This document shows, piece after piece, positions 4,298-57,495 of a stretch of DNA of 64,000 bases (within the stretch, counting starts at the first letter, position 1; each line of letters opens with the position of its first letter). The position numbers were made by a program, and so were the translations under genes. The DNA comes from a virus. The notes under the pieces are model-generated. The model did no database searches. It saw only the letters and a list, made by a program, of their open reading frames with translations, and was not told the origin of the DNA. The stretch is taken from the IMG/VR virus record IMGVR_UViG_3300020178_000002, positions 248,001-312,000 of that record; one strand, 5' to 3'.

Positions 4298-4357
4298 ATG
4301 ATTATTCACACAATTATTGTCATTCTAGTCATTAGTATTATCACTGATCTATGCTAG
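4298..4357 (+). CDS. Tiny hydrophobic peptide (19 aa), possibly coupled to the preceding one
   Basis: ATG immediately follows the TAA at 4295-4297. It encodes 19 residues, nearly all Ile/Val/Leu/Thr. There is no ribosome-binding site of its own, so it would depend on reinitiation. Listed as a possible micro-ORF only. Confidence 0.2.
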   Translation: MIIHTIIVILVISIITDLC

Positions 4358-4403
4358 TATATTAGTAACTATACTTTGACCTAATAGGTTTCAGTTATAG
4401 TCC

Positions 4404-4435
4404 AGCCTCTACTAATAGTAGGGGCTTTTCTTTTT
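4404..4435 (+). terminator. Rho-independent terminator
   Basis: AGCCTCTA pairs with TAGGGGCT (one G-U pair), followed by CTTTTCTTTTT. It lies between the micro-ORFs and the gene at 4448. Confidence 0.6.
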
Positions 4436-4447
4436 AGGGGAAGAAAT

Positions 4448-4681
4448 ATGGAAAAGAAAAAGCTATCTCCCCAAGCAATCGCAAACATTAAGATTAAGAA
4501 CTTGCGAAATAGAACTCCAGAAGAAGCTGAAGAAGCTCGTAGGAGATTCAGGGAGAACATGGAAAGTCAAGAGGTCTTAGAGTTCATTGAAAGAGAAGTG
4601 AGCCGACAGAACCTTGAAGACGAACACAAGAAAGCAAAAGACTATCTCAAAGAGAGACTAAAGCAGATTTACTCTAGGTAA
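4448..4681 (+). CDS. Hypothetical charged helical protein (77 aa)
   Basis: Rich in Lys, Glu and Arg and very probably one long helix or coiled coil (EEAEEARRRFREN...). The ribosome-binding site GGGGAAG precedes the ATG and comes directly after the terminator. No family recognised. It converges on terL, whose stop is at 4721. Confidence 0.6.
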   Translation: MEKKKLSPQAIANIKIKNLRNRTPEEAEEARRRFRENMESQEVLEFIEREVSRQNLEDEHKKAKDYLKERLKQIYSR

Positions 4682-4720
4682 GTTGCTTAGTCCAGAGATA
4701 TTCTTTTGCCTTTTTTTTGC

Positions 4721-7700
4721 CTATTTTTTTCCGTACCTTCCGTTTATAGACCCTCTGAGATCATACCTAGATCTTTTAGGTGCTATTCTCTTTGAATCAG
4801 ATCCGCCTCTGCCTGTGTATCTACCACCTGTAGCAAAGCTTTTCCCACCAGCAAGAGGGTGAGATCCACCTCTTGAGCCTTGTGCGAAGTATCTGGTTTT
4901 ACCCATACTGTTTGAAGCTAACCAGATCATTCTAACAAGTGCATCAGACATATCGTCATGTTTCCCAGCAGTTTGCGGTGCTTCCACAGTAATAAGGTGT
5001 TTTGAATGCACTGTTTGCTGTAGCTCTAAAAGCTCTGCAATATAAGGTTCGTGACCATCTACATAAGGGTCTTTCTTGTTGTAGAGCTTTAGCTTCTTAT
5101 CCCACATCATGTCCTTAAAGTTTTGGAACATATTCGATGTGATTTGTTTAGTCATGTTGACAGAAGTCAGTTGTTTCAGCCCTCTCTTTTCGAGAGCTTG
5201 TTGAAAAGGAATCCCAGCCCATTGGTCAAAGATCCCTTCAGTGAAGAAGAACTTCTTAGAATACTCAAGAACCCAATCCGCAACATCATCAAACTCTAGT
5301 CTCTCTTTATCATGGTAGATGCCTTCACCAGCTTTTATTTGATCTACCAAGTCAAGAACTATCATATCGTCTTCAAGGTGTCCTATTGCTATTGCAGTAC
5401 CATCGCCAACCAAAGCTAAGTCGATTCCAACAAAGTGTGGCTTTCTAGCTGGTGCTGATCTCTTGGGAGATAGGCTTGGGTCTACACAAGCTAAAAGGTC
5501 TTCTTCTTTCTCAATCCAGCCTCTGGTTCTATCTGTAAACTCACCACCATACTCTGTAAAGAACACAGCAGCGTTTTTGAGGTAATGCTTTTCAAACTCT
5601 TGAGCAGGGACTGTGGGGTTTACTTCCCAAGTCGGTGCTTGTACAGCTAGGATATTATCAGCAGCCGCACCACCTCTCATACCTATTTGAAATAAGTTAT
5701 AAAATAGCCCTTGTCGGCCTAAAGGAGATGAAATAAGGATAACCCTACCCTCTACCTCTCCAATTGGCTTTGTGGGGTCTTCTGGGTCTTTAGCAGAATA
5801 TGCAGATGTCGAAGGTACGACAGCGTTATAAACTTCTTCTGCACCAGATTGACCTGTCTCTGTAAAGTGAGCAACCTCGTCAAGAATAACGCATATATTA
5901 CCAGCACCACGAAGACCTTTAGCGACACAAGACCTAAAGGTAACTTTCAGCGTTGCTTTTGCAGAGGGGTCTTCGATATACCTACCATATTTCTCTACAT
6001 CTGCTGGTGTCTGAAACCTTGCATATGAGAGAGTGTTATTTGCAGTGTAAGGGCCAAAAAATGCACAGTTTCGATAGTGTCCTGACACCTCTTGATAGAG
6101 AAGTCCAGCTTGGTCTTTATCGGTCGCTACTGATATAATCTGGATGTTATTTGAAGCAGGTAGGCCATAGAACTTTTGAGGGTTTTCTTTTTTAATAAGT
6201 TTATATGTCTCATAGGCAGCAATACAAGCAGAGATTGTTGTGTTGTGGTTCGTAAAGCCATTACCTACAAACATAGATCCATCTGGAACATTCAAGTCAA
6301 AGACATGGCTCTCAGATTCTTCAACTTTTCTAACTGGTTCAAATATGTAATCTTTATCTAGGATCTCATTTAGCTTAAGGATAGAAGATTCTGAAATCTT
6401 CGCTTCTTTTATGATACTTCTTACCTTTTCAAAGCTTGTGCTTTTCTGTCTTAAACCCAAGTCTTCATGGCTATTTAAGTAAGAGCTGATTCTAGGAGGT
6501 AGTCCTATTTCGCCACTCTTTGGGGTTGAGGTCATCCTTTTAGCTAGGGAGTCTAGCTTTTCTCTTTTCTCTTTTGAGATGAAGCCTATGTCCTTGTGGA
6601 AGATTCTGTATGAAGCCCATTTCTTTAGTCTGATTCTGTAGTAGGGCTTTCCATCTCTTATTGTTTCTTTTCGAGATGAGAACACTCCTAAGCTCAAGAG
6701 CAAGGTTTGAACCTGTTTACCTAGTAGTTCGCTTTTTGTTGTGAAAGAGACATCTCGTCTGTCTCTTGATACAGACCCATCTGTTTCAAAAAGACCTCTA
6801 ATAAAAGCACATTGAACATCTCTTGGTGATCTTAGTATAATGTCTGGTATGCATTTATCTTTATACTTTGCTTTAATCTTCCAGCCAAGATTGTGCAGGA
6901 ATTTTCTGAAGTTCTTGTCATAAACGACAATCTTACTACAGTTCTTATTTTTTTGAGGTATCTCAGCGACCTTTCCAAAAAGGGAAAACATGGTTAAGAT
7001 GAGGTTTTCTTTAAAAGAGTTATCTCCTACTGTCACAACAATACAGTTTTCTTCAGACCAAGATCCATCTCCAGCCAAGATACCTAACATCTCACCCCAA
7101 TCTTTTGTGAGATACTCTGGAAATCTTTTATTTGGGTTCAGGTCTTTAGTGTATTCATTTAGCTTTACATATTGGTCAGTGAATATACTTCTTTTGTGGT
7201 TCAGGCAGGTAATGTCTCCCTCTTTTAGGTTTTCAAGATATTTCCAAGAGATGTTTAAGTTCTTATCGAGGACTTTGATTCTATGGTTTCCAGTTCCTTC
7301 TAAAGTGTACCCTGATTCTGTTTCCAATTTGAAAGTAGGTTTTATACCACCATTGTAGAAGTAAGCTGCTCTTGCAGTTTTGCCACCTTCTTGTACAACC
7401 TTAACTGATATTTTTTGGTATTCAGGTGCATCAAGGGAAGAGTCTCCTAATGAATCTATACGAACCAAACCTTTATCTGTAGGTATCAGAGTATCTCCTG
7501 TAACGCATTTACCAGATCTTCGACCTATCGAGAGAATCATTTCCCTTCTTTGTTTTCCAGGTATGACCTCTCCTATATTGCATCTTCCCTCATCAAAAAG
7601 TTTTTTGAGGTAAGACTTTTCAGTGTGGGTTTCAACTTTGGTTCTAGTCCAATCAGAAATCTGGAAAGTTTCGACATCATCTAACTCTAAGCCATAGTGT

Positions 7701-37401: not shown

Positions 37402-38358
37402 ATGAATAAGGTAAGAGCTTCTTTTCTAAACCTGGTAGAGGAAAAAGGCGGTTTTGTGTGCCATCACGCACACTTTGATAAATCTCATTTAATAACCCCA
37501 GAGATTCTGAGAAAAAGTCAATCTAGCCTTCAAGAAAAGTGGTACATATACAGAGACTTGAAAGAATCTTACACTAGGGAAGATCTAAGACTTCGTATGG
37601 TTCGATGTATTGAAAAAATGCGATCTCAAGGTGTTAACAAATGTAAAACCTTCATAGATGCAGACCAGATTGTAGGTTTGACTCCTATGGAAGTTGCTGT
37701 TGAGCTAAAGAAAGAGTACTCAGCTAAAGGCTTTGATCTGCTTCTGGCAGTTCAGCCTCTTGAGGGAGTTCTAAATCCTTTTGCTAGAGAGATTTTTGTT
37801 AAAGCCTGTGGAATGGCTGACGTTGTTGGAGGTCTTCCAGATAGAGACAAAGAGCCACTATCTCATATGGACTTTATTTTAAGCCTAGCAAAAGATTTAG
37901 GCAAAGACCTTGATGTTCATGTTGGTCAAAACAACATACCCTCTGAACAAGAATCCGAGATGGTTGTTGATAAAGTTAAAGAGCATAACATGGAGGGTAG
38001 AGTGAACTTGGTTCATGCAATCTCTTTATCTTGCCAAACCAAAAGCAAGAGGAAAGAGGTTATACAAAAGATTAAAGATACCAATACAGGTGTGATTGTG
38101 TGCCCCTCTGCTGCAATAAGTATGAAGCAACAATCTAATGTTTCCGCCCCTATCCATAATTCCATAGCTCCTGTCTTAGAAATGCTTGAAGCTGGTGTAG
38201 ATGTAATGTTAGGTGTGGATAACATACATGACCTATTCATGCCTTTGGTTGATGGAGACCTATGGTTTGAGTGTAGGCTGATGATGGAAGCAATAAGATG
38301 CTATGACTTGGAACTGATTTCTAAAATAGCTTCAAATAAAAGAGGTTTTAATGATTAA
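37402..38358 (+). CDS. Amidohydrolase, cytosine deaminase/AtzC-like clade, substrate unknown
   Basis: A 318-aa metal-dependent hydrolase. The HHAHFDKS motif near residue 22 corresponds to the HxHxDK metal site of CodA/AtzC-type amidohydrolases. Later DVHVGQ, VNLVHAISL and MLGVDNIHDLFMP supply the further His and Asp ligands. Known relatives deaminate cytosine or triazine-type rings. It heads a four-gene overlapping cluster with purB, purA and guaC, so a nucleobase or nucleoside substrate is likely. The HxHxDK motif and 'GVDN' ending argue against dihydroorotase. RBS AAGGAG at proper distance. Substrate is not determined. Confidence 0.7.
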   Translation: MNKVRASFLNLVEEKGGFVCHHAHFDKSHLITPEILRKSQSSLQEKWYIYRDLKESYTREDLRLRMVRCIEKMRSQGVNKCKTFIDADQIVGLTPMEVAVELKKEYSAKGFDLLLAVQPLEGVLNPFAREIFVKACGMADVVGGLPDRDKEPLSHMDFILSLAKDLGKDLDVHVGQNNIPSEQESEMVVDKVKEHNMEGRVNLVHAISLSCQTKSKRKEVIQKIKDTNTGVIVCPSAAISMKQQSNVSAPIHNSIAPVLEMLEAGVDVMLGVDNIHDLFMPLVDGDLWFECRLMMEAIRCYDLELISKIASNKRGFND

Positions 38359-39592
38359 AAGATATGAACACCCTAAGATTAAAAAGATCTTCTCTCCTGA
38401 ACAGAGGCTTTCTTATTTTGTAGACATCGAAAGATACGCATCTCTTTATCATGGAGTTGAAATACCAGATATAAACATAGATTCCCTGCTTTGTAGTATG
38501 GATGAATGTGAAAAGATCACGAAGCATGAGACAGTTGCTTTCTTACAAGCTCTTTCTTATCAGTTAGATGATATTTCAAATCTTCACTTTGGTATGACAA
38601 GCTCTGATGTTTTAGATACCTGTCTTTCTTTACAAATCAAAGAAGCATCTAGTGTTTTGGAAGATGAGATAAAGATTCTTCTCACTAGCCTTAAGACTTT
38701 CTGCTTAAAGAATAAGAATACTCTTATGGTAGGTAGATCTCATGGTAAAGCAGGTGAATTGATCAGCTTAGGGTTTTCTTTTCTTTCTTACTATAAAGAA
38801 TGGGAGAGGAACTTAGATAGACTCACTCATGCTAGAGAAGAAGTCTCTTATGGGATGGTTTCTGGTCCTATGGGTAACTTTTCAAACATTAATAGAGAGA
38901 AAGAAGACTTTATTTGCTCTAGATTAGGGATCAAACCAGAGCCTGTTTCAACTCAAGTTATTCCAAGAGATAGACATTCCTATCTTATGTGTGTACTAGG
39001 CATCATTGGAGCATCTCTCGAAAGATTATCCACACACATTAGAAACTTGAGTCAGTCTGGCATTGAAGAAATTTCTGAATCCTTTTCCGTTTCCCAAACA
39101 GGGAGTTCGGCTATGCCACATAAGAAGAACCCTATCTTATCAGAAAATGTGACAGGACTTGCCAGACTGTTAAAAAGTTATGTCTCTCCCTCTTTAGATA
39201 ATGTTTCCCTCTGGTTTGAAAGGGATATGAGTCATTCTTCTGTTGAGAGGGTGACAATAGAAGATGCGTTTCACTTATCATGCTTTGCAGTCAAAAGAAT
39301 GACTTTTGTCATTGATAGGCTTTCTGTTCATAAAGAGTCTTTGGATAAAAACATTGAAAGAGAAGGCAATCACATTTATTCTCACTCTGTTCTTTGCCAT
39401 CTTATGAAAAAAGGTGTAGACAGACATGAGGCATATCGCTTCATTCAAAAGGTCACTCAGGGAAACAAGGACTTATTTAAAGAATTAGAGACTTCCTATC
39501 CCGAGCATAAGGTAGGACAAGTGGTATTATTTAATGAATGTGTGTCAAACATAGATCATATTTTTAGGAATGTATTTGGAGATTCTAAATGA
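38351..39592 (+). CDS. purB: Adenylosuccinate lyase
   Basis: A 413-aa fumarase/aspartase-superfamily enzyme that converts adenylosuccinate to AMP and fumarate; bacterial enzymes also act on SAICAR. Visible are LHFGMTSSDVLDT (substrate binding), RSHGKAGE (catalytic His region) and the superfamily signature GSSAMPHKKNPILSE, with the flexible catalytic Ser loop. Length is close to bacterial PurB (~430 aa). It overlaps the amidohydrolase by 8 bp and purA by ATGA. Confidence 0.93.
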   Translation: MIKRYEHPKIKKIFSPEQRLSYFVDIERYASLYHGVEIPDINIDSLLCSMDECEKITKHETVAFLQALSYQLDDISNLHFGMTSSDVLDTCLSLQIKEASSVLEDEIKILLTSLKTFCLKNKNTLMVGRSHGKAGELISLGFSFLSYYKEWERNLDRLTHAREEVSYGMVSGPMGNFSNINREKEDFICSRLGIKPEPVSTQVIPRDRHSYLMCVLGIIGASLERLSTHIRNLSQSGIEEISESFSVSQTGSSAMPHKKNPILSENVTGLARLLKSYVSPSLDNVSLWFERDMSHSSVERVTIEDAFHLSCFAVKRMTFVIDRLSVHKESLDKNIEREGNHIYSHSVLCHLMKKGVDRHEAYRFIQKVTQGNKDLFKELETSYPEHKVGQVVLFNECVSNIDHIFRNVFGDSK

Positions 39593-40806
39593 GTACAACG
39601 GCAGTTATAGGTGGTCAATGGGGTGATGAGGGTAAAGGTAAGATTGTTGACTTTCTTTCAGAAGGTGCAGACTATTGTGTTCGCTTTCAAGGTGGCAGTA
39701 ATGCAGGTCATACTATCACAGTAAACGATCAAGTGTATAAGCTCAGATTATTGCCCTCAGGAGTCCTTAGAGGTTCAACGGGTGTTCTTGGTGCTGGTAT
39801 GGTTATAAACCTTGATGTGCTTCAATCTGAAGTCTCTTATCTACAAGAAAGAGGGATAGAGCCAAAGTTCTTTATTGATCATAGAGCACATCTTGTCACT
39901 CCAGAGCATATTTCCAATGATGTTCTTCGAGAGAAAGAATCTGGAAACAGAATTGGCACTACAAGAAATGGTATTGGCCTTTGTTATGAAGATAAAGCAA
40001 GAAGAACAGGTCTTCGTGCAGGAGATCTACTAACAGACTTTGATTCTAAGGTAGATGCCTTTCTTAAGTTTTATGATAACAGCCCTCGTGTTAAGTTAGG
40101 TCTGGTGAAAGTTTTGAATGAGTGGAAAGACACTTGGTCTAAATACATTCGTACAGACCTCACAGATGTTCTATATAGAGCAATGCATATAGAAGATAAG
40201 GAAGTTGTTATTGAAGGGGCACAGGGGACTCTCTTGGATGTTTCACATGGAACATATCCTTTCGTTACATCTTCTCATACAATAGCCCCAAGCATTGCAG
40301 CAGGAGTAGGTGCTTCTTTACCAAGAGACTATAACTGCATTGGTGTTTTTAAAGCATACTGCACTAGAGTTGGCAAAGGGGGCTTCCCATCAGAAGATTT
40401 TACAGAAGATGGAGATGCTTTACAGAGAATCGGTAAAGAGGTAGGTGTTGTCACAAAGAGAGTTAGAAGATGTGGCTGGCTTAACCTTGATGATATGATT
40501 TATGCGAACCAGCTTAATGGCTTCACTTCAATTGTTTTAACAAAAGTGGATGTCTTAGATGGATTCTCTAAAGTTAAAGTAATGTATAAGGGTGATTTGC
40601 AAACTCTAGATGGTTGGGCAGGTTCAGGAGATGCCAAAACTTGGCTTGAGCTACCAGAGAATCTTATGAAGTTTATTGATTACATTCAAGAGAAAACAGG
40701 TGTTTCAGTTACCATGATTTCTAATGGTCCAGATCGCAAGGACACAATAATGCACCCTTTTTTAACTATGCCAAAACTTGAAACCACACCTAGCATGGAG
40801 CTTTAA
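39589..40806 (+). CDS. purA: Adenylosuccinate synthetase
   Basis: A 405-aa enzyme catalysing IMP + Asp + GTP to adenylosuccinate. The P-loop [14 protein letters not shown] places the catalytic base at Asp13; GGSNAGHTI holds the catalytic His; [24 protein letters not shown] and [11 protein letters not shown] are classic PurA motifs. Retention of Asp13 distinguishes it from phage PurZ, which makes 2-aminoadenine precursors and has Ser there. It is flanked by purB and guaC with overlapping or adjacent ends. It lacks some C-terminal residues compared with E. coli (432 aa) but looks functional. Confidence 0.95.
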
Positions 40807-40807
40807 T

Positions 40808-41860
40808 ATGAGAATTGAAACAGAGTCGAAGCTGGACTTCAAAGATGTATTGTTTAAGCCAAAGAGATCAACTCTGACCTCTCGAAAAGAAGTAGATCTA
40901 AATAGGGATTTCAAGTTCCCTCATAGTAATCGTGTCTGGAGTGGTGTTCCTATTGTAGCAGCCAACATGGACACTGTTGGAACTATTGAAGCAGGTAAGG
41001 TTCTTTCTCAGAACAATATGCTAACTTGTCTCCATAAACATTACACTGAAGATGAGTATGTAGACCTCTATAATTGGGTATATGCGAACCAAGGCTCTAC
41101 TTATGCTTCCTATTGGGCTTACTCTATGGGTATTTCAGATGAGGAGTTTGCTAGATTAGAATCAGTCCAGAAGAAAACTTCTGGTAAGATTACTACAATC
41201 TGTATTGATGTCGCTAATGGATATACTGAGAGGTTCATTAACTTTGTTTCTAAGGTTAGAAACAGATATCCAGAAGCGATTATTATTGCAGGTAATGTCG
41301 TGACTGCTGAAATAACAGAGCAGCTTATCCTAGCAGGTGCAGACATAGTAAAAGTTGGGATAGGGTCAGGGAGCGTTTGTACGACTCGTATTCAAGCTGG
41401 TGTAGGCTATCCTCAGTTGAGTGCAGTTATTGAGTGTGCAGATGCAGCACATGGTTTGAATGGTCGGATTATGTCTGATGGTGGTTGTACTTGTCCTGGA
41501 GATGTAGCTAAGGCATTTGGTGGTGGGGCTGACTTTGTAATGCTGGGTGGTATGCTTGCAGGTCATGTTGAGAACCTTAAGCTAGATGACCAAGGAAATG
41601 CTTTATTTTATGGTATGTCATCAGATACAGCTATGGACAAGTATCATGGTGGTGTTAACGAGTATCGCTCATCAGAGGGTAGGACAGTATCTCTTGACCA
41701 AAGAGGCAATATAAAAGACACCATTCAAGACATACTTGGTGGAGTTCGTTCAACTTGTACTTATATTGGTGCGAGTGAGCTTCGTGAGCTGAGTAAATGC
41801 ACGACTTTTATTCGTGTTTCTCAGCAGTACAACCCTGTGTATGAAAGCAAGACTGTTTAA
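40808..41860 (+). CDS. guaC: GMP reductase
   Basis: A 350-aa NADPH-dependent enzyme converting GMP to IMP and ammonia. The sequence follows E. coli GuaC almost throughout: the [16 protein letters not shown]-terminus, [20 protein letters not shown] with the catalytic Cys, [18 protein letters not shown], and a C-terminal STCTYIGA. There is no CBS domain, so it is not IMP dehydrogenase. I chose the ATG at 40808, two bases after the purA stop, because it gives the canonical family N-terminus. Together with PurA and PurB it completes a GMP to AMP route. Confidence 0.95.
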
Positions 41861-43047
41861 ACCTTAACAGGGTCTCGCTTATTCTTGTAATAAGCAGTTA
41901 TGATTTTAGCAGTGCCTGTATCCTTATCAAACTCAAAGGCTACAGTTAAGTTTTTGGTCATAGGGTCTGTCCACTCAGCTTGCATTCCATAATCTATAGC
42001 TGAGATTAAGTCTTTAGCTCTTAGGTTGTATTCATTCCTCTCGTAATACTTCTCAAGATTAAAGAAGAAAGATTTCAGTTTGTGTACTGAAATACCTCTC
42101 TGATCCATTCTGTATTGAGCATGTGAACTGATGCAGAATTGTTTAATCTTATTTAGACCACTTTTATTGCAATCTACATAGGTATAAACCTCTCTGGCTT
42201 CACTGTTAGGTATGTTCTGACCTTGTTCAAGCTTTTTGATGAGTCTTAGTTCAAGGTTGTGATCAGCGACATTTTTAATAATCCTGTCTCTGGTATGTTC
42301 TATCCCACCTGGTTTTCCTAAAGGGGGGACTAGATCAGCCTTTTTCAGAGTTTTCTTTAAATCTTGGATTTCTCTCTGGAGCGTTTTACTCAAATCCTTG
42401 ATCTCTTTCCTCGTTTTGTTCCCATCCTCCTCAATAGTTTCCTCTAATATGTAACTAGTTGAAAAAGAACCAAAGGCTTTTTTTTCTCTGCTAAGGGTTT
42501 TAATCTCTTGGTTGAGTTCGTTAAGCATCTTCGATGCAGTACGAATCTGAGAAGCTCTTTTACCTCTGCTGAAGAGTCTCTTTAAGAATCTGACCCCCTT
42601 GCCTACAAGGGAGTACTTCTCCTCGATTTTTTCTTTTAGGTCTTCAAGAACTGTTCCATACTCTTTGAGGTACTCAGGCTGACCCATTAGCTCACCTAAT
42701 TCAAAAGCAAGTTTTTCTAACTCTTTGTCTTTTTCTGCCTTAGAAATGTCTCTTTTCATTTCTTTTATCCTGAACTTACGCTCAATTTTTCGAGCTGCCT
42801 TGTCTTCTTTTTCTCTTTTAACTCCTTCAATGAACTTTCTTAGTCGGTAGTTATCTAATTTTTTTTGCTTAATGGTCGCTAAAAAGCCATCAAGTACCGA
42901 ACCATATTCTTCAACATACTCTGGTTGAGCCTGTAAGCCAACAACCTCTTTTTCTAGGTCATCTAGGTCTTTGTCATTTATTTTATCTCTAGATACACGC
43001 TTGCTGATGTCTTTTATAGCTTCTTCTCTTTCAAGTAAGGTCTGCAT
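41857..43047 (-). CDS. Coiled-coil protein with C-terminal HA..RM..RGI domain (396 aa)
   Basis: Residues 1 to ~260 are highly charged coiled coil. The middle holds a module ([30 protein letters not shown]) that is repeated almost identically in the neighbouring pentapeptide protein. The C-terminus ([14 protein letters not shown] ... [20 protein letters not shown]) resembles the HA-R-M-x-x-R-G-I signature of DUF4258/BrnT-type RNase toxins and phage MuF-associated domains. A virion-delivered effector or maturation protein is conceivable. It converges on guaC with a 4-bp overlap. Confidence 0.55.
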
Positions 43048-43059
43048 ATCTTATCCTTT

Positions 43060-43995
43060 TTATTTTCCTTGGTTCTTGAGATCTCTAATCTCTTGGTTAA
43101 TTTCGTTAAGCATCTTCGATGCAGTACGAATCTGAGAAGCTCTTTTCCCTTTGCTGAACATATTCTTGAGATACTTGATGCCTTTACCTACAAGTGAGTA
43201 CTTCTTCTCAATAGTTTCGTGCATTTCTTTCAGAACATTTTCATAGACTTTGGAGTATAGAGGGTCTGCCTCTAAAGCACCTACCTCAACAGCAAGTTCT
43301 TCTAAGTCTCTATCTTTTCTTGAGCTCTTAATAGCTCTGCCTAGATCCTTAATGGTGTCCTGCATCTCTTGCTCTAATATAGTGAATCCCTTATGGGGGA
43401 AGTTCATAGTGATCTCTACACTAAGACCCTCCACCATGCTTAGATTAGCACCTGTGAAATCTGGGTTTAGTAAGACAGCTTTGCTAAAACTTGCTTCTGT
43501 AAGATTACTGCCTTTGAAGTCAGCACTTCTTAGTTGAACATTAGTGAAGTCAGCACTTGTAAGATCAGCACCAGAGAAGTCAGGTTTTGTTCCTTTAGCG
43601 ATGTAGAATTGACTGCCTCTTAGGATGCTTTTTCTAAAGTCTGTTCCATTCAAGGTAGAACCACTGAGTTCAGCACTTCTGAGGTCAGCATCTTGTAGGT
43701 TTGCTTTTGTTAAATCTGCATAATCTAATTTGGCTTGTCTGAGATCTGCTGATTTCAAAGTAGCATCACTTAGATCAGCTTTGGTTAGTATTGCTCTTGC
43801 TAAGTCAGCACCTGTGAAGTCTGCTTCCATTAACTTAGAATTTTCGAGAGAAGACCCATGAAACGTAGCACCTCTCAGATCAGACTCTCTAAGGTCTATT
43901 TCTCTGAGATCCATATTTTTAAAAACACCTCTGGGAGCTTTTGTTTGTGGCATTACAGCTCTTTCGAGGTCTTCTTTTGTATAGTCTTTACTCAT
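43060..43995 (-). CDS. Pentapeptide-repeat protein with shared C-terminal module
   Basis: Residues ~20-190 form a right-handed beta-helix of pentapeptide repeats (DLRGATF, ADLSDAT, ADLRQAK and similar A[DN]LxX units). The C-terminal ~110 residues (LAVEVGALEADP ... [32 protein letters not shown]) match the central module of the downstream gene. Pentapeptide proteins can mimic DNA and bind gyrase, but here the role is unknown. Confidence 0.75.
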   Translation of the reverse strand: MSKDYTKEDLERAVMPQTKAPRGVFKNMDLREIDLRESDLRGATFHGSSLENSKLMEADFTGADLARAILTKADLSDATLKSADLRQAKLDYADLTKANLQDADLRSAELSGSTLNGTDFRKSILRGSQFYIAKGTKPDFSGADLTSADFTNVQLRSADFKGSNLTEASFSKAVLLNPDFTGANLSMVEGLSVEITMNFPHKGFTILEQEMQDTIKDLGRAIKSSRKDRDLEELAVEVGALEADPLYSKVYENVLKEMHETIEKKYSLVGKGIKYLKNMFSKGKRASQIRTASKMLNEINQEIRDLKNQGK

Positions 43996-44542: not shown

Positions 44543-45253
44543 ATGAAAATAATCTTATCTCCACCCTTCAGTAATTTGGCTTTAACAAACCTTTATCCTA
44601 ACACCACAAGAATCATTGGCACATACACTCTAAATAAGAGAAGGGGTTTGTGGAGAGTTCTTACTACCCTTAAGAAAACAAACAGGGGCTGGGTAAATAA
44701 TGTAGGCTTAAGGAATGGTGGTATTACGACAGTCCCAAACAAACCTTTCATAGTCTCTATTGCAGAGCTTGAGTCAGGTGATTGGTTACAGATGCTGAAT
44801 CATTTATCTACTTTGGATAATATTCTGGGGGTAGAGCTTAATATCTCTTGCCCTAATGCTCAGGTTAAAGGGGTGGGAGAAGATCTTCTGCGTAGCTTCA
44901 ATGATACTTTTAATAATGTATTTGTTAAAGTTCCTCATAACTACCCAGAGCGTCACCTTTTTAGCTTGATAGAGTGTGGTGCAAAGGTTATTCATATTTC
45001 TAATACGAAGAAGACAGAGGTTGGTTCTCTCTCTGGTGTGGAGTTGATACAAAAAAACCTCCAAACCATTAAAACAGTGAAGAAGCATTATCCTCATGTT
45101 AAAGTGGTTGGAGGTGGTGGTATATACAACTTAGAATCAGCTAAACAGTATATAGAAGCAGGTGCAGACTACATTTCTTTGTCTACAAGTTTGCTTAGAC
45201 CTTTTCGGACATATTTCCTAATTAAAGGATTACATACCTTCTTAGCTGACTGA
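44543..45253 (+). CDS. pyrD: Short dihydroorotate dehydrogenase
   Basis: A 236-aa TIM-barrel flavoprotein-type protein, predicted to oxidise dihydroorotate to orotate. Visible are SPPFSNLAL, the active-site ELNISCPNAQVKG with Cys (class 1 enzymes use Cys as base), VFVKVP (catalytic Lys), and GGGGIYNLESAKQYIEAGADYISLSTSLL for FMN phosphate binding. It is much shorter than cellular enzymes (~310-340 aa), largely because N-terminal and intervening loops are reduced. It stands close to the UMP synthase fusion gene, separated by one small antisense gene. Activity needs testing because of the reduced size. Confidence 0.75.
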   Translation: MKIILSPPFSNLALTNLYPNTTRIIGTYTLNKRRGLWRVLTTLKKTNRGWVNNVGLRNGGITTVPNKPFIVSIAELESGDWLQMLNHLSTLDNILGVELNISCPNAQVKGVGEDLLRSFNDTFNNVFVKVPHNYPERHLFSLIECGAKVIHISNTKKTEVGSLSGVELIQKNLQTIKTVKKHYPHVKVVGGGGIYNLESAKQYIEAGADYISLSTSLLRPFRTYFLIKGLHTFLAD

Positions 45254-45509
45254 AGCTTAAGAAGTATGCTTCTTGAGTTCCTCTTTCGAGAACTTCAACT
45301 ATTGGCTTTTCATATTCAGTGTTGTATAAGATCGAAGCCCTGACATTCTGACCTCTGTTTCCTCTGTTCTGACTTTTGACTATTACAGGCCAGTTGTACT
45401 CTTCTTTGTGTTCAGAGTAAGGAGTTGCTTCATATACTCTTTTAGCTGAGGGCTTTCCAAGTATTCTTATTAGAGTATACACTCTATCTTCTTTTAGACT
45501 GTCTAACAT
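45222..45509 (-). CDS. Hypothetical protein (95 aa), antisense between pyrD and pyrF-pyrE
   Basis: Start is preceded by GAAAGGA. Basic, beta-rich; its C-terminus overlaps the end of pyrD by 32 bp. Size and charge would suit a small nucleic-acid-binding protein, but no motif is recognised. Confidence 0.45.
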   Translation of the reverse strand: MLDSLKEDRVYTLIRILGKPSAKRVYEATPYSEHKEEYNWPVIVKSQNRGNRGQNVRASILYNTEYEKPIVEVLERGTQEAYFLSFSQLRRYVIL

Positions 45510-45525
45510 CTAGGTGTCCTTTCGT

Positions 45526-46638
45526 ATGATTAAAAAAGTATGTGTTGGTTTAGATCTTCCTATTAATAGTTCTTTAGAAGACTATATAAAAATTATTAAC
45601 GAGGTTGGCTCTACAAGCTACAAAGTCAACCCTGCCTTTGTATCGCCCCATATAATGCCATTGCTTGCTTCTGAACTCAATATAAGGGGCTTCTTTTGGA
45701 TATATGATGGTAAGCTGGGTGATGTTCCTCATACAAATGAGAGATATGCAGATTATGTATTCAATCAGCTAGGTGCAAATGCAGTCACCTTAAATCCTTT
45801 TGTTGGTCTGGAGGCACTTGAGCCTTTCTTTCAATATGAAGATAGATACTCTTTTGTTCTTTGTAAAACTACCAACTCTGGAGATAAAAAAGCTCAGTCT
45901 GCTATGTATACAGACATAATTTCTTTAGCTTCCGAGAGAAGCAATGTAGGTATTGTCTACTCGTCACTAGATTCTGAGGGTTTGAGAGCAGTATCAGAAG
46001 GCAACTTTTTGATACTTGCACCTGGAGTGGGCTCACAAGGTGGCTCTGCTGCAGTAGATGAGTTGAATATTCTTTATACAGTAAGTAGGACTATAATAAA
46101 TTCACCTGACCCCCGTGAGACTTATCTTGAAATCAAAGGTGGTGTTGAAGCTATTCTCTTAGAGAGTTTGAGGTCTAGGGGTTTCATTAAAGAAGGTCAG
46201 TTTACACTTTCAAGTGGTCTTTCTTCTAACTACTATATTGACTTAAGGTGTCTTTCTTCTGACATAGACTTCTACCAAGAGGTATGTTTGCTTTTGTCTA
46301 GGCAAATAAAAACCCCTGATATACTAGGTGTCGAGAGTGGAAGCATATCTCTAGCTTCTTCTCTTGCTTGTCTTCTAGATAAACCTTTTGGTTTTGTTAG
46401 AAAGACTGCAAAGTCACATGGTACATCAAGGGTTGTTGAGGGTATCTCAGAGGGAGAAGCAACAGTTGTAGATGATGTTTTAACAACTGGTAGTAGTCTT
46501 ATAAAGGCTGTTTTAAATGCTAGAGCCTCTGGTATCTATGTCAGTGAAGTTTTAGTTGTAATAGAAAGAGTTGGTTATGGTGGTAGAGAAGCTCTTGAGA
46601 GTTATGGTATTAAAGTCAATTCTTTAGCGAGACTTTAG
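45526..46638 (+). CDS. OMP decarboxylase - orotate phosphoribosyltransferase fusion (UMP synthase, PyrF-PyrE order)
   Basis: A 370-aa bifunctional protein. Residues 1 to ~200 are OMP decarboxylase: VCVGLDLP, YKVNPAFVSP and IYDGKLGDVPHTNERYA, which carries the D-x-K-x-x-D active-site triad. From ~205 it is orotate phosphoribosyltransferase: FTLSSGLSSNYYIDLR, FVRKTAKSHGTSRVVEG and the PRPP signature VVDDVLTTGSS. Together these convert orotate plus PRPP to UMP. The order is the reverse of animal UMPS; inverted fusions are known in kinetoplastids and some bacteria. I chose ATG 45526 because AGGTG lies upstream; a GTG at 45514 is an alternative. Confidence 0.9.
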   Translation: MIKKVCVGLDLPINSSLEDYIKIINEVGSTSYKVNPAFVSPHIMPLLASELNIRGFFWIYDGKLGDVPHTNERYADYVFNQLGANAVTLNPFVGLEALEPFFQYEDRYSFVLCKTTNSGDKKAQSAMYTDIISLASERSNVGIVYSSLDSEGLRAVSEGNFLILAPGVGSQGGSAAVDELNILYTVSRTIINSPDPRETYLEIKGGVEAILLESLRSRGFIKEGQFTLSSGLSSNYYIDLRCLSSDIDFYQEVCLLLSRQIKTPDILGVESGSISLASSLACLLDKPFGFVRKTAKSHGTSRVVEGISEGEATVVDDVLTTGSSLIKAVLNARASGIYVSEVLVVIERVGYGGREALESYGIKVNSLARL

Positions 46639-51406: not shown

Positions 51407-52792
51407 ATGTCTCTACATTTATTTATACCCTCTATAAATGAAATCTTAGCTCTTTTAATAAAAAGTCATGCTTCTTCTGGAGGCACTGTTTTGTTATCAA
51501 GGGCAGGCAAGGTTTGGAATAACCCCTCTACTAAGTCTATACTTAATGCTTGGCATCCAAAAGACATCGCAGGGAAACTACTTCAGAATTCTTTTTTAGA
51601 GCTTTGTGATGGTGGTGATGGTGGCAAAATGTCTGTGTTCATCGCCTGCTCACTGATAAAAAGCTTCTATCGGTTAAGTGTCTCAGAAGATTATCAAGAG
51701 AAGAATGTTAAAGAATCCTTGTCTGGTATTCTAGGGCAAATAAAAGCTTTTCCCTCTAGTGAAGATATTTTAATAAAAGTGGGTCTTCAGAGTGGTCTGG
51801 ATATAGAGGATGTTAAAAGTGTAGCTCAATCTATCTCGCTATCTGGTGCTTCTTCTTCACACATCTCTTTAGAGAAATGGGAGGGTGTAGGCTGTGAGGT
51901 CATACAGACAGACTCTTTCCTTGCTAATTTGAAGATACATTCAGATAAAGAAGTCTATCTCAAGGGTGCTATGTTCGTCTTATTTCAGAAACCACTCTTT
52001 GAGGTAAAAGAGATAGTTCCAGTTATGGAATTCATGTCTTCTTTTGAAGGTAGGCCTTTAGTTGTAATAGCCCCGATGGTTGGTGGTGGAGCTCTCAAAA
52101 CGATAAATCTTAATAGGAACAAAGGAGTTTTGGAAGCTTATGCTTGTGATGCACCAAGAGTAACTTGGTCAGAAGGCTGGCTTGAAGATATGGCTTCCTT
52201 TACAGGTGCAACAGTCTATAATACTTCATTTGATTCAGAGTTTAAGCCTGTGTTTTTTGGTTCTGCTTTAGAGGTAGTTTTAAACTACAATGAAATGGTC
52301 GTCACTCCTTATGATGAACATGTTGAAAGAACATCAGAGAGAGCAGACTTTCTTTTAAAAGAAGCTGAACTTTCTCCTTTCCCTCATACTCAGGATACTT
52401 TGAGGAAAAGAGCCAATGCTCTGAATGGTACTTTAGTTAGATTAAAAGTTGGTGGTGTAACAGAGTCAGAATCTAGGTGGAGAAGGGTTCTTATTGAAAA
52501 AGCTCTTATCTCAATGTCTGATGTAAATCGCTCTGGCTATGTTAAAGGTTCTATTCCCTGTTTGTATAATATAGAAACAAACAATCCAATACTAGAGAGA
52601 GCATTAAAGTCACCTTTCAATGTTGTTTGTCACAATTTAGGTAAGGCTGTTAATGATAAAACAGTCTGGGAGTCTCCCTTGTTGTATGAGCTTTTTCCAG
52701 CTTCTCGACTTTCAAATTTGATAACAAAAGCAGTTTCAGTGGCTACCACTATTGGTTCAGTAAGTCACATTGTAGAAAAGGAAAAAAGATGA
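51407..52792 (+). CDS. Divergent GroEL/Hsp60-like chaperonin (461 aa)
   Basis: Hand comparison with GroEL: DGGDGGKMSV (residues 67-76) sits where GroEL has GDGTTTATV; RPLVVIAPMVGGGALKTINLN (216-236) and VLEAYACDAP (241-250) match the apical segments around 'EGEALATLVVN' and 'AVKAPGFG'; WLEDMASFTGATV (258-270) matches 'MLEDIAVLTGG'; LRKRANALNGTLVRLKVGG (332-350) and VTESESRWRRVLIEKAL (351-367) match the 'RLAKLAGGVAVIKVG...RVEDAL' block. The aspartate equivalent to GroEL Asp398 appears replaced by Lys, and the protein is ~90 aa shorter than GroEL, so ATP hydrolysis may be lost. Start uncertain; no strong ribosome-binding site. Phage-encoded chaperonins are known in giant phages. Confidence 0.7.
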   Translation: MSLHLFIPSINEILALLIKSHASSGGTVLLSRAGKVWNNPSTKSILNAWHPKDIAGKLLQNSFLELCDGGDGGKMSVFIACSLIKSFYRLSVSEDYQEKNVKESLSGILGQIKAFPSSEDILIKVGLQSGLDIEDVKSVAQSISLSGASSSHISLEKWEGVGCEVIQTDSFLANLKIHSDKEVYLKGAMFVLFQKPLFEVKEIVPVMEFMSSFEGRPLVVIAPMVGGGALKTINLNRNKGVLEAYACDAPRVTWSEGWLEDMASFTGATVYNTSFDSEFKPVFFGSALEVVLNYNEMVVTPYDEHVERTSERADFLLKEAELSPFPHTQDTLRKRANALNGTLVRLKVGGVTESESRWRRVLIEKALISMSDVNRSGYVKGSIPCLYNIETNNPILERALKSPFNVVCHNLGKAVNDKTVWESPLLYELFPASRLSNLITKAVSVATTIGSVSHIVEKEKR

Positions 52793-54979: not shown

Positions 54980-55593
54980 TTATTACAATATTAAGAAAGC
55001 CTTTAGAGGGGAGTGTGGCAGATAATGTTTTAAAACATGGTTGTGGTGCATTGAATATAGATGCTTCTAGGATTAGTACCTCTGACAACCTCAATGGCGG
55101 AGCTTATGCTGAGTCTGCGAGTGAGAGACATGACGGAAAAGAGAACTGGAGGTATGAACGAGGTAAAGCAGGAGAGTATGAGCAACCGAAAGGCAGGTGG
55201 CCTGCTAACTTTATCCTCATGCATAAAGAGGGTTGTGAGTTAAAAGGAACTAAGAAAGTAAAGTCGAATGGTCATTGGACTCAAAAAGCAAATATTGGGA
55301 AGTTCTATGAGGGGGGTTGGAATCATCAAGAAATAGATGAGGGGAACAAGATGTCTGATGAAGATGGGAAAGAGGCTGTAGCAGATTGGGCTTGTGTAGA
55401 GGGTTGTCCTGTTCAGAGTTTAGATGCCCAAACAGGCATCTTGCGTAGTGGCAAAGATGTAAATCCAACAACTTCAAAAGTTAGTGGCTTTTTTGGTCAA
55501 ACAGATAACTACTATTCGGCAAAGTCGAATTATGGGGATAGCGGAGGTGCTTCTAGGTTCTTCAAGCAATTCAAGAAAGGAAATGAAAAATGA
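54976..55593 (+). CDS. Split DNA methyltransferase, middle subunit 2 (GTG start)
   Basis: A 205-aa paralog of the middle subunit with the same ends (ILRKPLEGSVADNVLKHG ... GGASRFFKQFKK), the GRWPANFILMHKEGCELKG and DWACVEGCPVQSLDAQTG blocks, and three quite different intervening segments. Start is GTG, overlapping the previous TGA; the end overlaps the N-terminal subunit gene (ATGA). It is an intact frame. Confidence 0.8.
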   Translation: MIITILRKPLEGSVADNVLKHGCGALNIDASRISTSDNLNGGAYAESASERHDGKENWRYERGKAGEYEQPKGRWPANFILMHKEGCELKGTKKVKSNGHWTQKANIGKFYEGGWNHQEIDEGNKMSDEDGKEAVADWACVEGCPVQSLDAQTGILRSGKDVNPTTSKVSGFFGQTDNYYSAKSNYGDSGGASRFFKQFKKGNEK

Positions 55594-56132
55594 TAGAGAT
55601 TAAAATAGGTGATTGCACCGAAAGACTAAAAGATTTAGAGGACAACTCAGTTGATGCTGTTATATCAGACCCTCCTTATGGGCTTAAATTTATGTCTAAG
55701 GGCTGGGATGATATAGGTGATGGCAGCCAGCAAAGAGAATGGCACAGAAAGTGGCTTACAGAGGCATACAGAGTTCTTAAGCCTAATGGAGTTATTAAAG
55801 CTTTCTCTGGGTCGAGAACTTTCCACCATCTGATAGCAATGATGGAAGAGATAGGGTTTGAAGACTTAAAAGTGGAGTCTTGGAGTTATGGTTCAGGTTT
55901 TCCTAAGTCTCACAATGTGAGCAAAGCGATAGATAAGTTAGGTGGTCGTCAATATAAGGCAATACCTGCTTCTGGTGTAGGGTTTATGAACTCAGATAAA
56001 GAGAACTGGAATGCTTGTCACAACCAACTCATTCCTGTCTCAGAAGAAACAGAAGAAGCTAAAGTTTGGAATGGTTGGGGTACGGCTCTTAAACCTTCAT
56101 GGGAGCCTGTCTGTGTTGGAGTTAAGAAATGA
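55590..56132 (+). CDS. Split DNA methyltransferase, N-terminal catalytic subunit (DPPY)
   Basis: A 180-aa protein with DPPYGLKFMSKGW (motif IV, residues 27-39), the LKPNG..KAFSGSRTFHHL and EEIGFEDL segments and YGSGFPKSHNVSKAID, as in beta-class DNA methyltransferases. It stops at GWGTALKPSWEPV, exactly where intact enzymes continue into the target-recognition part. DPPY usually indicates N6-adenine methylation. It is flanked on both sides by middle subunits and needs the C-terminal gene for the SAM-binding motif. Confidence 0.85.
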   Translation: MIEIKIGDCTERLKDLEDNSVDAVISDPPYGLKFMSKGWDDIGDGSQQREWHRKWLTEAYRVLKPNGVIKAFSGSRTFHHLIAMMEEIGFEDLKVESWSYGSGFPKSHNVSKAIDKLGGRQYKAIPASGVGFMNSDKENWNACHNQLIPVSEETEEAKVWNGWGTALKPSWEPVCVGVKK

Positions 56133-56734
56133 TTATTACAATATTAAGAAAGCCCCTAGAAGGGAGCGTAGCAGATAATGTGCTGAAACATGGATGTGGT
56201 GCTTTGAACATAGATGCCACTAGGATTGGTTTAGAGACTATGGTTTCTAGGTCTATGGGTAGTCTAGGGGTTATGCACGATGATAATTGGGAATCTAAAC
56301 CTATTGAAGCTAAAGAAGCCACAGGCAGGTGGCCTGCTAACTTTATCCTCATGCATAAAGAGGGTTGTGAGTTAAAAGGCTCTAAAAAAATTAAAGAGGG
56401 CAAAGCTAATAAAGATAAGGGTGGCTCATTTAGAGAAGTGGGTCTTTATGAAGATGGGTTGAAGACTAGAGCTGTAGACCATTTTCAAGGAGAAGAAGAG
56501 ATAGAAGATTGGGCTTGTGTAAAGGATTGTCCTATTAGGAAACTAGACCTGCAAAGTGGTCAAGTCAAAGGTTGGTCGAGTCAAAACCATAATACTTTTA
56601 ATCCATATCAAGGAAACTCGTTCCACAACTCGTCAACCCAAAGACAAGGATATAAAGAGGGGTATAACGATGATGGAGGGGCTTCTCGGTTCTTCAAGCA
56701 ATTTAAGAAAGGTAATGAAAAATGGAAGATATGA
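56129..56734 (+). CDS. Split DNA methyltransferase, middle subunit 3
   Basis: A 201-aa third paralog (ILRKPLEGSVADNVLKHG ..., GRWPANFILMHKEGCELKG, DWACVKDCPIRKLDLQSG, GGASRFFKQFKK) with its own variable segments. It is directly between N- and C-terminal genes, as the middle segment of an intact enzyme would be. ATGA with the N gene; 13-bp overlap with the C gene. Confidence 0.82.
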   Translation: MIITILRKPLEGSVADNVLKHGCGALNIDATRIGLETMVSRSMGSLGVMHDDNWESKPIEAKEATGRWPANFILMHKEGCELKGSKKIKEGKANKDKGGSFREVGLYEDGLKTRAVDHFQGEEEIEDWACVKDCPIRKLDLQSGQVKGWSSQNHNTFNPYQGNSFHNSSTQRQGYKEGYNDDGGASRFFKQFKKGNEKWKI

Positions 56735-57495
56735 TTGAGTATTTTAAAGTAATGATAACCCCACCTGTAGAAGAGCCTATTATCTTAGTAGGTAAGCCCT
56801 CTGAGATTGATTATACCAGCTTCATGGCTTTAGAGGGGGCTTCCATCGTTCCCATATATAACCCATCTGTACATGGGATCATTTTACTTGGAGAACCCAC
56901 AGAGGAAGAATCGAGTTTAATCAATGAGATTCTACTTCCAGGTGCTCATGTTATTCTTATCCCAGAAGATATTGGATATAAGGGTGTTATCTCCCTTGAA
57001 GACAAGGGTGGTTTAGAAGTTAGAGATGCCATTTTTGTAGCAGACGAGAACTCAGAGTTCTGCTATACTTCTAAAGCAAGTAGAGGTGAGCGAGAAGCAG
57101 GTCTTTCTAACTTCGATGAGAAAGAGGGTCATGGTACATTTAGGGCAACTAGAGATCAAGCTATGCTAACAGGTTCTGGTAATGTTAGGGACAACAAGCG
57201 TAAGAATATCCATCCTACTGTTAAGCCAATAGAGATAATGGAATGGTGTGCTAGAGATATAGAACCTAGCTCTACTGTTGTAGACCCTTTTATGGGGTCT
57301 GGAACAACAGGTATCGCTATGTCTAAACTACACCATGACTTTGTAGGGATAGAGCTTAATCCTGAATATGCTAAAATATGTGAGGCGAGGATGAAGTATT
57401 GGAAACCTGTGGACACAAAGATTATTTCAGAGAACCCTGTCGAAGAAGAAGACCAACAGGTCTTCACAGGGCAAGTTTCTCTATTTGACTTTTAG
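56722..57495 (+). CDS. Split DNA methyltransferase, C-terminal SAM-binding subunit
   Basis: A 257-aa protein whose second half carries CYTSKASRGEREAGL, HPTVKPIEIMEW (164-175) and the AdoMet-binding DPFMGSGTTGIAM (188-200), followed by FVGIELNPEYAKI. The first ~110 residues are unexpected: they include PGAHVILI...LEDKGGLEVRDAIF, which resembles a degenerate copy of the 'PGAHLLAFGGTR...IEDAGFEIRD' segment found near the DPPY motif in intact enzymes. A second ATG at 56731 is an alternative start. It converges with the pentapeptide gene (4-bp overlap). Confidence 0.85.
   Translation: MEDMIEYFKVMITPPVEEPIILVGKPSEIDYTSFMALEGASIVPIYNPSVHGIILLGEPTEEESSLINEILLPGAHVILIPEDIGYKGVISLEDKGGLEVRDAIFVADENSEFCYTSKASRGEREAGLSNFDEKEGHGTFRATRDQAMLTGSGNVRDNKRKNIHPTVKPIEIMEWCARDIEPSSTVVDPFMGSGTTGIAMSKLHHDFVGIELNPEYAKICEARMKYWKPVDTKIISENPVEEEDQQVFTGQVSLFDF

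Follow-up and report, generated by a model that had tools for sequence, protein, structure and literature searches.

A Short-Family Dihydroorotate Dehydrogenase and a PyrF-PyrE Fusion Point to a Terminal Pyrimidine Branch in a Likely Jumbo Phage

Introduction

Can a large virus complete the synthesis of UMP, and with what kind of dihydroorotate dehydrogenase (DHODH)? The question is raised by two genes, pyrD and pyrFE, in a 64,000-base stretch of DNA (the window) that comprises bases 248001–312000 of a 312,136-base IMG/VR virus record. A preliminary description had assigned to them the steps from dihydroorotate to UMP and had called such a set unusual for a phage. We regard it as quite likely that the window virus is a jumbo phage with its own terminal pyrimidine branch, composed of a DHODH of a short family and a PyrF-PyrE fusion. 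The terminal UMP pathway is real, probably functional and, judged from sequence, would be built on a new DHODH variant.

Genomic Setting

The viral setting was borne out by the IMG/VR record itself and by terminase, PhoH, and endolysin-like genes close by; exonuclease and clamp-like genes and six tRNA genes are also present in the window. A near-DNA search across the phage collection returned no relative. The genes pyrD and pyrFE are not adjacent cistrons, being separated by a gap of ∼260 nt with a small antisense ORF (Table 1), and promoter-like matches around them were at chance level.

Table 1. Pyrimidine and purine features of the window (window positions)
Feature	Position	Strand	Evidence
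Amidohydrolase (PRK06886, cytosine-deaminase-like), first of four overlapping genes	37402..38358	+	366 bits, cut-off 340
PurB, adenylosuccinate lyase	38351..39592	+	TIGR00928, 341 bits, cut-off 326
PurA, adenylosuccinate synthetase	39589..40806	+	PRK01117, 403.5, cut-off 402
GuaC, class 1 GMP reductase	40778..41860	+	PRK05096, 538, cut-off 397
Short DHODH (PyrD), 236 aa, ATG start, complete TIM barrel	44543..45253	+	PF01180, AF2, PDB folds
Gly26 codon, place of class 1 flavin/orotate Lys43	44618..44620	+	Gap-free alignment GTYTLNKR / KATT...R
Cys103 codon, expected catalytic base (ELNISCPN)	44849..44851	+	Invariant in 62/62 sequences
Lys129 codon, equivalent of class 1 Lys164	44927..44929	+	Invariant in 62/62 sequences
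Small antisense ORF, 95 aa, between pyrD and pyrFE	45222..45509	-	Without family match
PyrF-PyrE fusion (inverted UMP synthase)	45514..46638	+	Pfam, PRK05500, 3qw4 matches
OMP decarboxylase half; DGKLGD at 45706-45723	45514..46140	+	PF00215, residues 8-206
OPRT half; PRPP motif VVDDVLTTGSS at 46465-46497	46141..46635	+	TIGR00336, residues 220-372

Other features of the window include a GroEL-like chaperonin gene (51407–52792; phrog_5725), also found in the PyrD-bearing contig L014, and a C-terminal stretch common to pentapeptide-repeat and other proteins (41857–43995), which recurs in the related virus L006 (11178–13615). Two ORFs at 55590–57495 match successive parts of the DNA methyltransferase family phrog_67 (123–244 and 275–344); they are separated by another ORF and may represent an interrupted gene.

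A Short PyrD without One Active-Site Lysine

The preliminary description had reported a 236-aa DHODH-like protein with a catalytic Cys, a Lys, and an FMN-binding glycine motif. The reading frame is present and matches DHO_dh (PF01180; E = 3.2e-12, 46.7 bits, cut-off 27), with a score to the PRK07259 equivalog of 64 bits, under the cut-off of 269. The named signatures were recovered as well (Cys103 in ELNISCPN, Lys129, and GGGI at residues 191–194), but a second lysine, Lys43 of class 1, is replaced by Gly26. Truncation was considered and rejected on the basis of a common start position across the family and a complete model. An AlphaFold2 model built with 32 family sequences reached a pLDDT of 93.9 and a pTM of 0.91, and every one of its best 50 PDB fold matches is a DHODH (TM-score ∼0.69–0.79 by query length). 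A search of a viral structure library gave no DHODH-like match (best E 2.6e-4, 12% identity).

In studied class 1 enzymes, Lys43 contacts ligands at the orotate site. The position aligns without a gap and reads K-A/G-T-T or similar in class 1B and G-T/S-x-T in the short family; the Gly is invariant in the viral set and is also found in the Candidatus Actinomarina and planctomycete members shown (see below). Comparison with the residues that PMC12060061 lists at the orotate site of trypanosomal DHODH placed class 1 N67, N127, C130, N132, K164, and N193 at window residues N52, N100, C103, N105, K129, and N154, leaving Lys43 as the sole loss among the residues checked, the other six being invariant or nearly so. 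The segment preceding GGLSG is shortened across the short family.

Each known DHODH class shares part of this profile. Class 1B (PyrDB, Lactococcus 1ep1/5ue9; PRK07259) is the best family-profile sequence match (E ∼1e-20) and has the TIM barrel, the SCPN cysteine, the FMN glycine motif, and the second lysine in common with the short PyrD, whereas the latter is ∼70 residues shorter, lacks Lys43, and has a short loop before GGLSG; in addition, the window and the viral and Actinomarina loci examined yielded no PyrK-like gene. The top fold matches belong to class 1A (1dor and the trypanosomatid enzymes), which uses the same catalytic Cys and which the short PyrD also resembles in that no partner gene was seen in its loci, but identity is ∼20% and Lys43 is again missing. 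At the place of the class 1 Lys, the short PyrD and class 2 (E. coli 1f76) have a G-T-x-T pattern in common. Class 2 traits are otherwise missing: the protein begins at the first barrel strand, without N-terminal membrane helices, carries Cys103 in place of the Ser base, and lacks the class 2 lysine (first strand, GFDKD), near which Asn11 is, on our reading of the alignment, an invariant residue.

The Lys43-to-Gly change, the short loop, a long branch away from class 1B, and scores far under the PyrD equivalog cut-offs would all suit a DHODH-fold flavoenzyme with another substrate, e.g., another dihydropyrimidine or a nucleic-acid base, whose nearness to PyrFE is incidental. We consider this unlikely; the remaining orotate residues checked are all kept, and the company that the gene keeps in viruses and in cells, described below, argues for dihydroorotate oxidation.

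The PyrF-PyrE Fusion

For the second gene, a 370-aa OMP decarboxylase/orotate phosphoribosyltransferase (OPRT) with intact D-x-K-x-x-D and PRPP motifs had been proposed, fused in the order opposite to animal UMPS, and each of these points held. The frame measures 374 aa from GTG (45514) and 370 aa from an in-frame ATG at 45526, the latter being the likelier start since TAGGTG precedes it at a ribosome-site-like distance. The motifs read D65-x-K67-x-x-D70 and VVDDVLTTG (318–326), together with an RKTAKSHG loop, and the order is PyrF-PyrE, as in kinetoplastids and cyanobacteria. Matches exceed the cut-offs of OMPdecase (PF00215; E = 1.2e-22, 81 bits, cut-off 27) and Pribosyltran (E = 1e-7, 31.8 bits, cut-off 26.3), while those to TIGR00336 (pyrE; E = 3e-26, but 92 bits against 106.8) and PRK05500 (PyrF-PyrE; E = 3.6e-34, 118 bits against an equivalog cut-off of 656) fall below them. 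The closest solved relative is the Leishmania UMP synthase 3qw4 (residues 9–363 aligned, E = 1e-35), and Leishmania UMP synthase was also the first match of the predicted structure (pLDDT 82, pTM 0.58, at which the domain arrangement in the model is not reliable). Both 3qw4 and the cyanobacterial PRK05500 proteins (∼480 aa) carry OMP decarboxylase followed by OPRT in one chain with the same motifs, but the viral fusions, at 370–393 aa, fall ∼100 aa short of the cyanobacterial length and form a group of their own by score.

PyrD and PyrFE also occur, arranged as in the window, in one related virus (61% and 51% identity, respectively). The fusion of the relative L006 (14767–15906) has TTRDYG for TAKSHG and LVEDVLTTG for VVDDVLTTG; with its catalytic loop thus diverged, some relatives may not have maintained OPRT. 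This altered loop would fit a view of pyrD and pyrFE as decaying acquisitions without function in the virus, which we hold to be very improbable given complete ORFs with key residues in both halves of the fusion, a gene order kept at 51–61% identity, the wide recurrence of the short PyrD family, and few amino-acid changes among close variants (PyrD, no nonsynonymous and up to four synonymous changes; PyrFE, three and up to five, respectively).

Short PyrDs and Companion Genes in Viruses

The PyrD of the window had been singled out as very short, which it is, but it is not a one-off: it belongs to a coherent family spanning viruses and bacteria. Scanning viral contigs with a three-row PyrD alignment that included the close virus L006 (177 kb) retrieved 74 loci; single-sequence PyrD or PyrFE scans and a two-row PyrD alignment gave no match in viral contigs because the sampled peptides were too divergent. 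The family comprises 62 distinct viral sequences, counting the window and the uncultured phage LR756511 (595 kb), whose 243-aa protein (32%) is the closest phage-collection record to the window PyrD. The family is uniformly short (∼225–260 aa), with full-length representatives (n = 34) of 224–259 aa, and each of the 32 members aligned has matches to PyrD models, at scores far under the cut-offs. Invariant or nearly invariant positions are R33, N52, E98-L99-N100, S102-C103-P104-N105, K129, N154-T155, S164-G165, and G191-G193. Phylogenetically, the short PyrDs form a single clade (100/100) on a long branch away from class 1B, within which the window protein groups with those of L005 and L014 at 100/100. 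On sequence grounds, the short PyrDs of viruses and some bacteria make up a distinct, coherent family lacking one active-site lysine. Viral pyrDI and pyrF were noted in passing by an earlier metagenomic survey (PMC13288924); the papers found contain no description of the short family, the missing lysine, or the cellular operon described below.

The companion enzymes recur alongside it. Among 47 short-PyrD virus records searched, OMP decarboxylase is found above the Pfam cut-off in nine and OPRT without PyrF in two (LR756511 and the 532-kb G029), so that 11 carry PyrF or PyrE; since most of these records are fragments, these counts are lower bounds. This association is a further argument against a different substrate for the short PyrD. 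By comparison, a search of 50,697 catalogued phage records found PyrF in 9, several of them resembling host DNA (Fisher p ∼1e-23 against 9/47, a rough contrast that is indicative only because the search methods differ). The set is accordingly rare among catalogued phages, as had been supposed, but it recurs in environmental viruses. Matches to PyrD and PyrF in Listeria and Enterococcus "phages" were dropped, these being short unannotated records with pyrD beside pyrF that resemble host pyr DNA.

The 375-kb virus L088 seems to have paired the same UMP steps independently: alongside a 393-aa fusion it encodes a PyrD of class 2-like type (4337–5218), with Cys for the class 2 Ser and a loop shortened as in the short family. 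LR756511 additionally carries an aspartate/ornithine carbamoyltransferase gene (397538–397954, in a 316-codon frame).

Cellular Short PyrDs

A genome scan for relatives of the short PyrD, considered for the best 80 of at least 436 matches, contained four members of the short family, three from Ca. Actinomarina and one from a Planctomycetaceae genome, the rest being ordinary PyrD; short-family scores were at least 164 bits and classical PyrD scores at most 88. The Actinomarina proteins (225 aa, 33–37% identity) likewise have Gly for Lys43. Across the Actinomarina order, a DHO_dh match was found in 25 of 42 genomes, in every case within a frame of 226–229 codons and never at full length; many of these genomes are partial, and the absence of another DHODH is therefore a statement about the set, not about single genomes. 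The planctomycete gene adjoins a PyrF, in an order otherwise mostly equipped with normal PyrD.

The Actinomarina genes belong to the same family as the window PyrD but lie in a cellular pyr operon, with carB, PyrF, and a small phosphoribosyltransferase (PRT)-like gene as neighbors where the window has the PyrFE fusion. One locus (L118) reads pyrR-pyrB-pyrC-carA-carB-pyrF-short pyrD followed by a 118-aa PRT-like gene, with pyrR, pyrB, pyrC, and pyrF supported by family-level Pfam matches; a second (L119) is arranged alike. The order carB-pyrF-short pyrD-mini-PRT was found in 14 of 14 loci checked, from 14 different genomes of the order. Given that the short PyrD is the only DHODH detected in the order and occupies this place, pyrimidine synthesis in a cell lineage appears to depend on it, which is difficult to reconcile with a flavoenzyme for some other substrate.

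The mini-PRT (116–118 aa, CDDVxTTGTS motif; L118 8675–9031, L040 12232–12579) takes the place of PyrE in the Actinomarina operon and also lies near the short PyrD in the viral contigs L024, L028, L040, and L078. The L118 protein is weakly PRT-like (E = 0.005 to Pfam PRT), and a minimal OPRT is possible.

In the tree, the Actinomarina PyrDs form a single clade (100/99) amid viral sequences, without a settled neighbor, and gene transfer between viruses and Actinomarina bacteria is likely. We give about even chances to a broader proposal, namely that short PyrDs constitute a separate DHODH class that viruses share with a streamlined order of marine actinobacteria and with at least one planctomycete, the gene having been exchanged between viruses and bacteria. 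Lacking both the flavin-site lysine and PyrK, such a class would have an altered flavin environment and perhaps an unrecognized electron acceptor.

Proposed Role during Infection

The virus record contains no match to PyrB (PF02729) or CarB (PF02786), and since the only amidohydrolase found in it is the cytosine-deaminase-like gene at 37402, dihydroorotase is not evident. Because PyrB and CarB were not found, the virus would be expected to enter the pathway at dihydroorotate, supplied by host enzymes. The compact, FMN-dependent short PyrD would then oxidize dihydroorotate to orotate, and the PyrF-PyrE fusion would add ribose phosphate from PRPP and decarboxylate the resulting OMP to UMP. The data show what the genes are, how their products are predicted to fold, which residues are conserved, that the set recurs, and that the short PyrD also occupies a cellular pyr operon; from this we infer catalysis, an electron acceptor other than PyrK (on the loci examined), and a benefit. 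The latter is probably a supply of UMP that an infecting virus would have without relying on host pyr genes being expressed, with GuaC, PurA, and PurB providing a parallel route from GMP to AMP.

Hosts under phage attack are reported to shut down UMP synthesis as a major early response, and in Lactococcus the pyr operons are shut down within minutes (PMC10986495). Viral terminal enzymes could blunt this response, and a viral bypass makes the nucleotide-starvation idea testable. The same host behavior lends plausibility to proteins whose main role would be to regulate host pyrimidine metabolism or to act as decoys in it, e.g., by binding orotate or OMP, instead of carrying flux (PMC10986495). 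That the window virus keeps the catalytic residues for all three activities, which a decoy would not need, makes such a role highly unlikely.

If the terminal-branch reading is correct, large phages carry a UMP branch entered at dihydroorotate, and a natural minimal DHODH exists without a lysine conserved in studied class 1 enzymes, for which the viral and cellular proteins test each other.

Neighboring Purine Genes

Upstream of pyrD and pyrFE stands the amidohydrolase-PurB-PurA-GuaC run (Table 1), of which PurB, PurA, and GuaC suffice on paper to convert GMP to IMP and then AMP. Assignment of the PurA gene as PurZ, of Z-genome viruses, was rejected on score (125 bits with the PurZ model, whose cut-off is 300). 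Parts of the purine gene set recur in four other loci (L006, L007, L008, and L282), and GuaC by itself occurs widely in viruses (134 loci). In the 226-kb virus L007, GuaC (5051–6535) harbors an apparent intein-like insert (CFVAGTPILTNNG...VVHN) inside the GSG-CTT active-site region.
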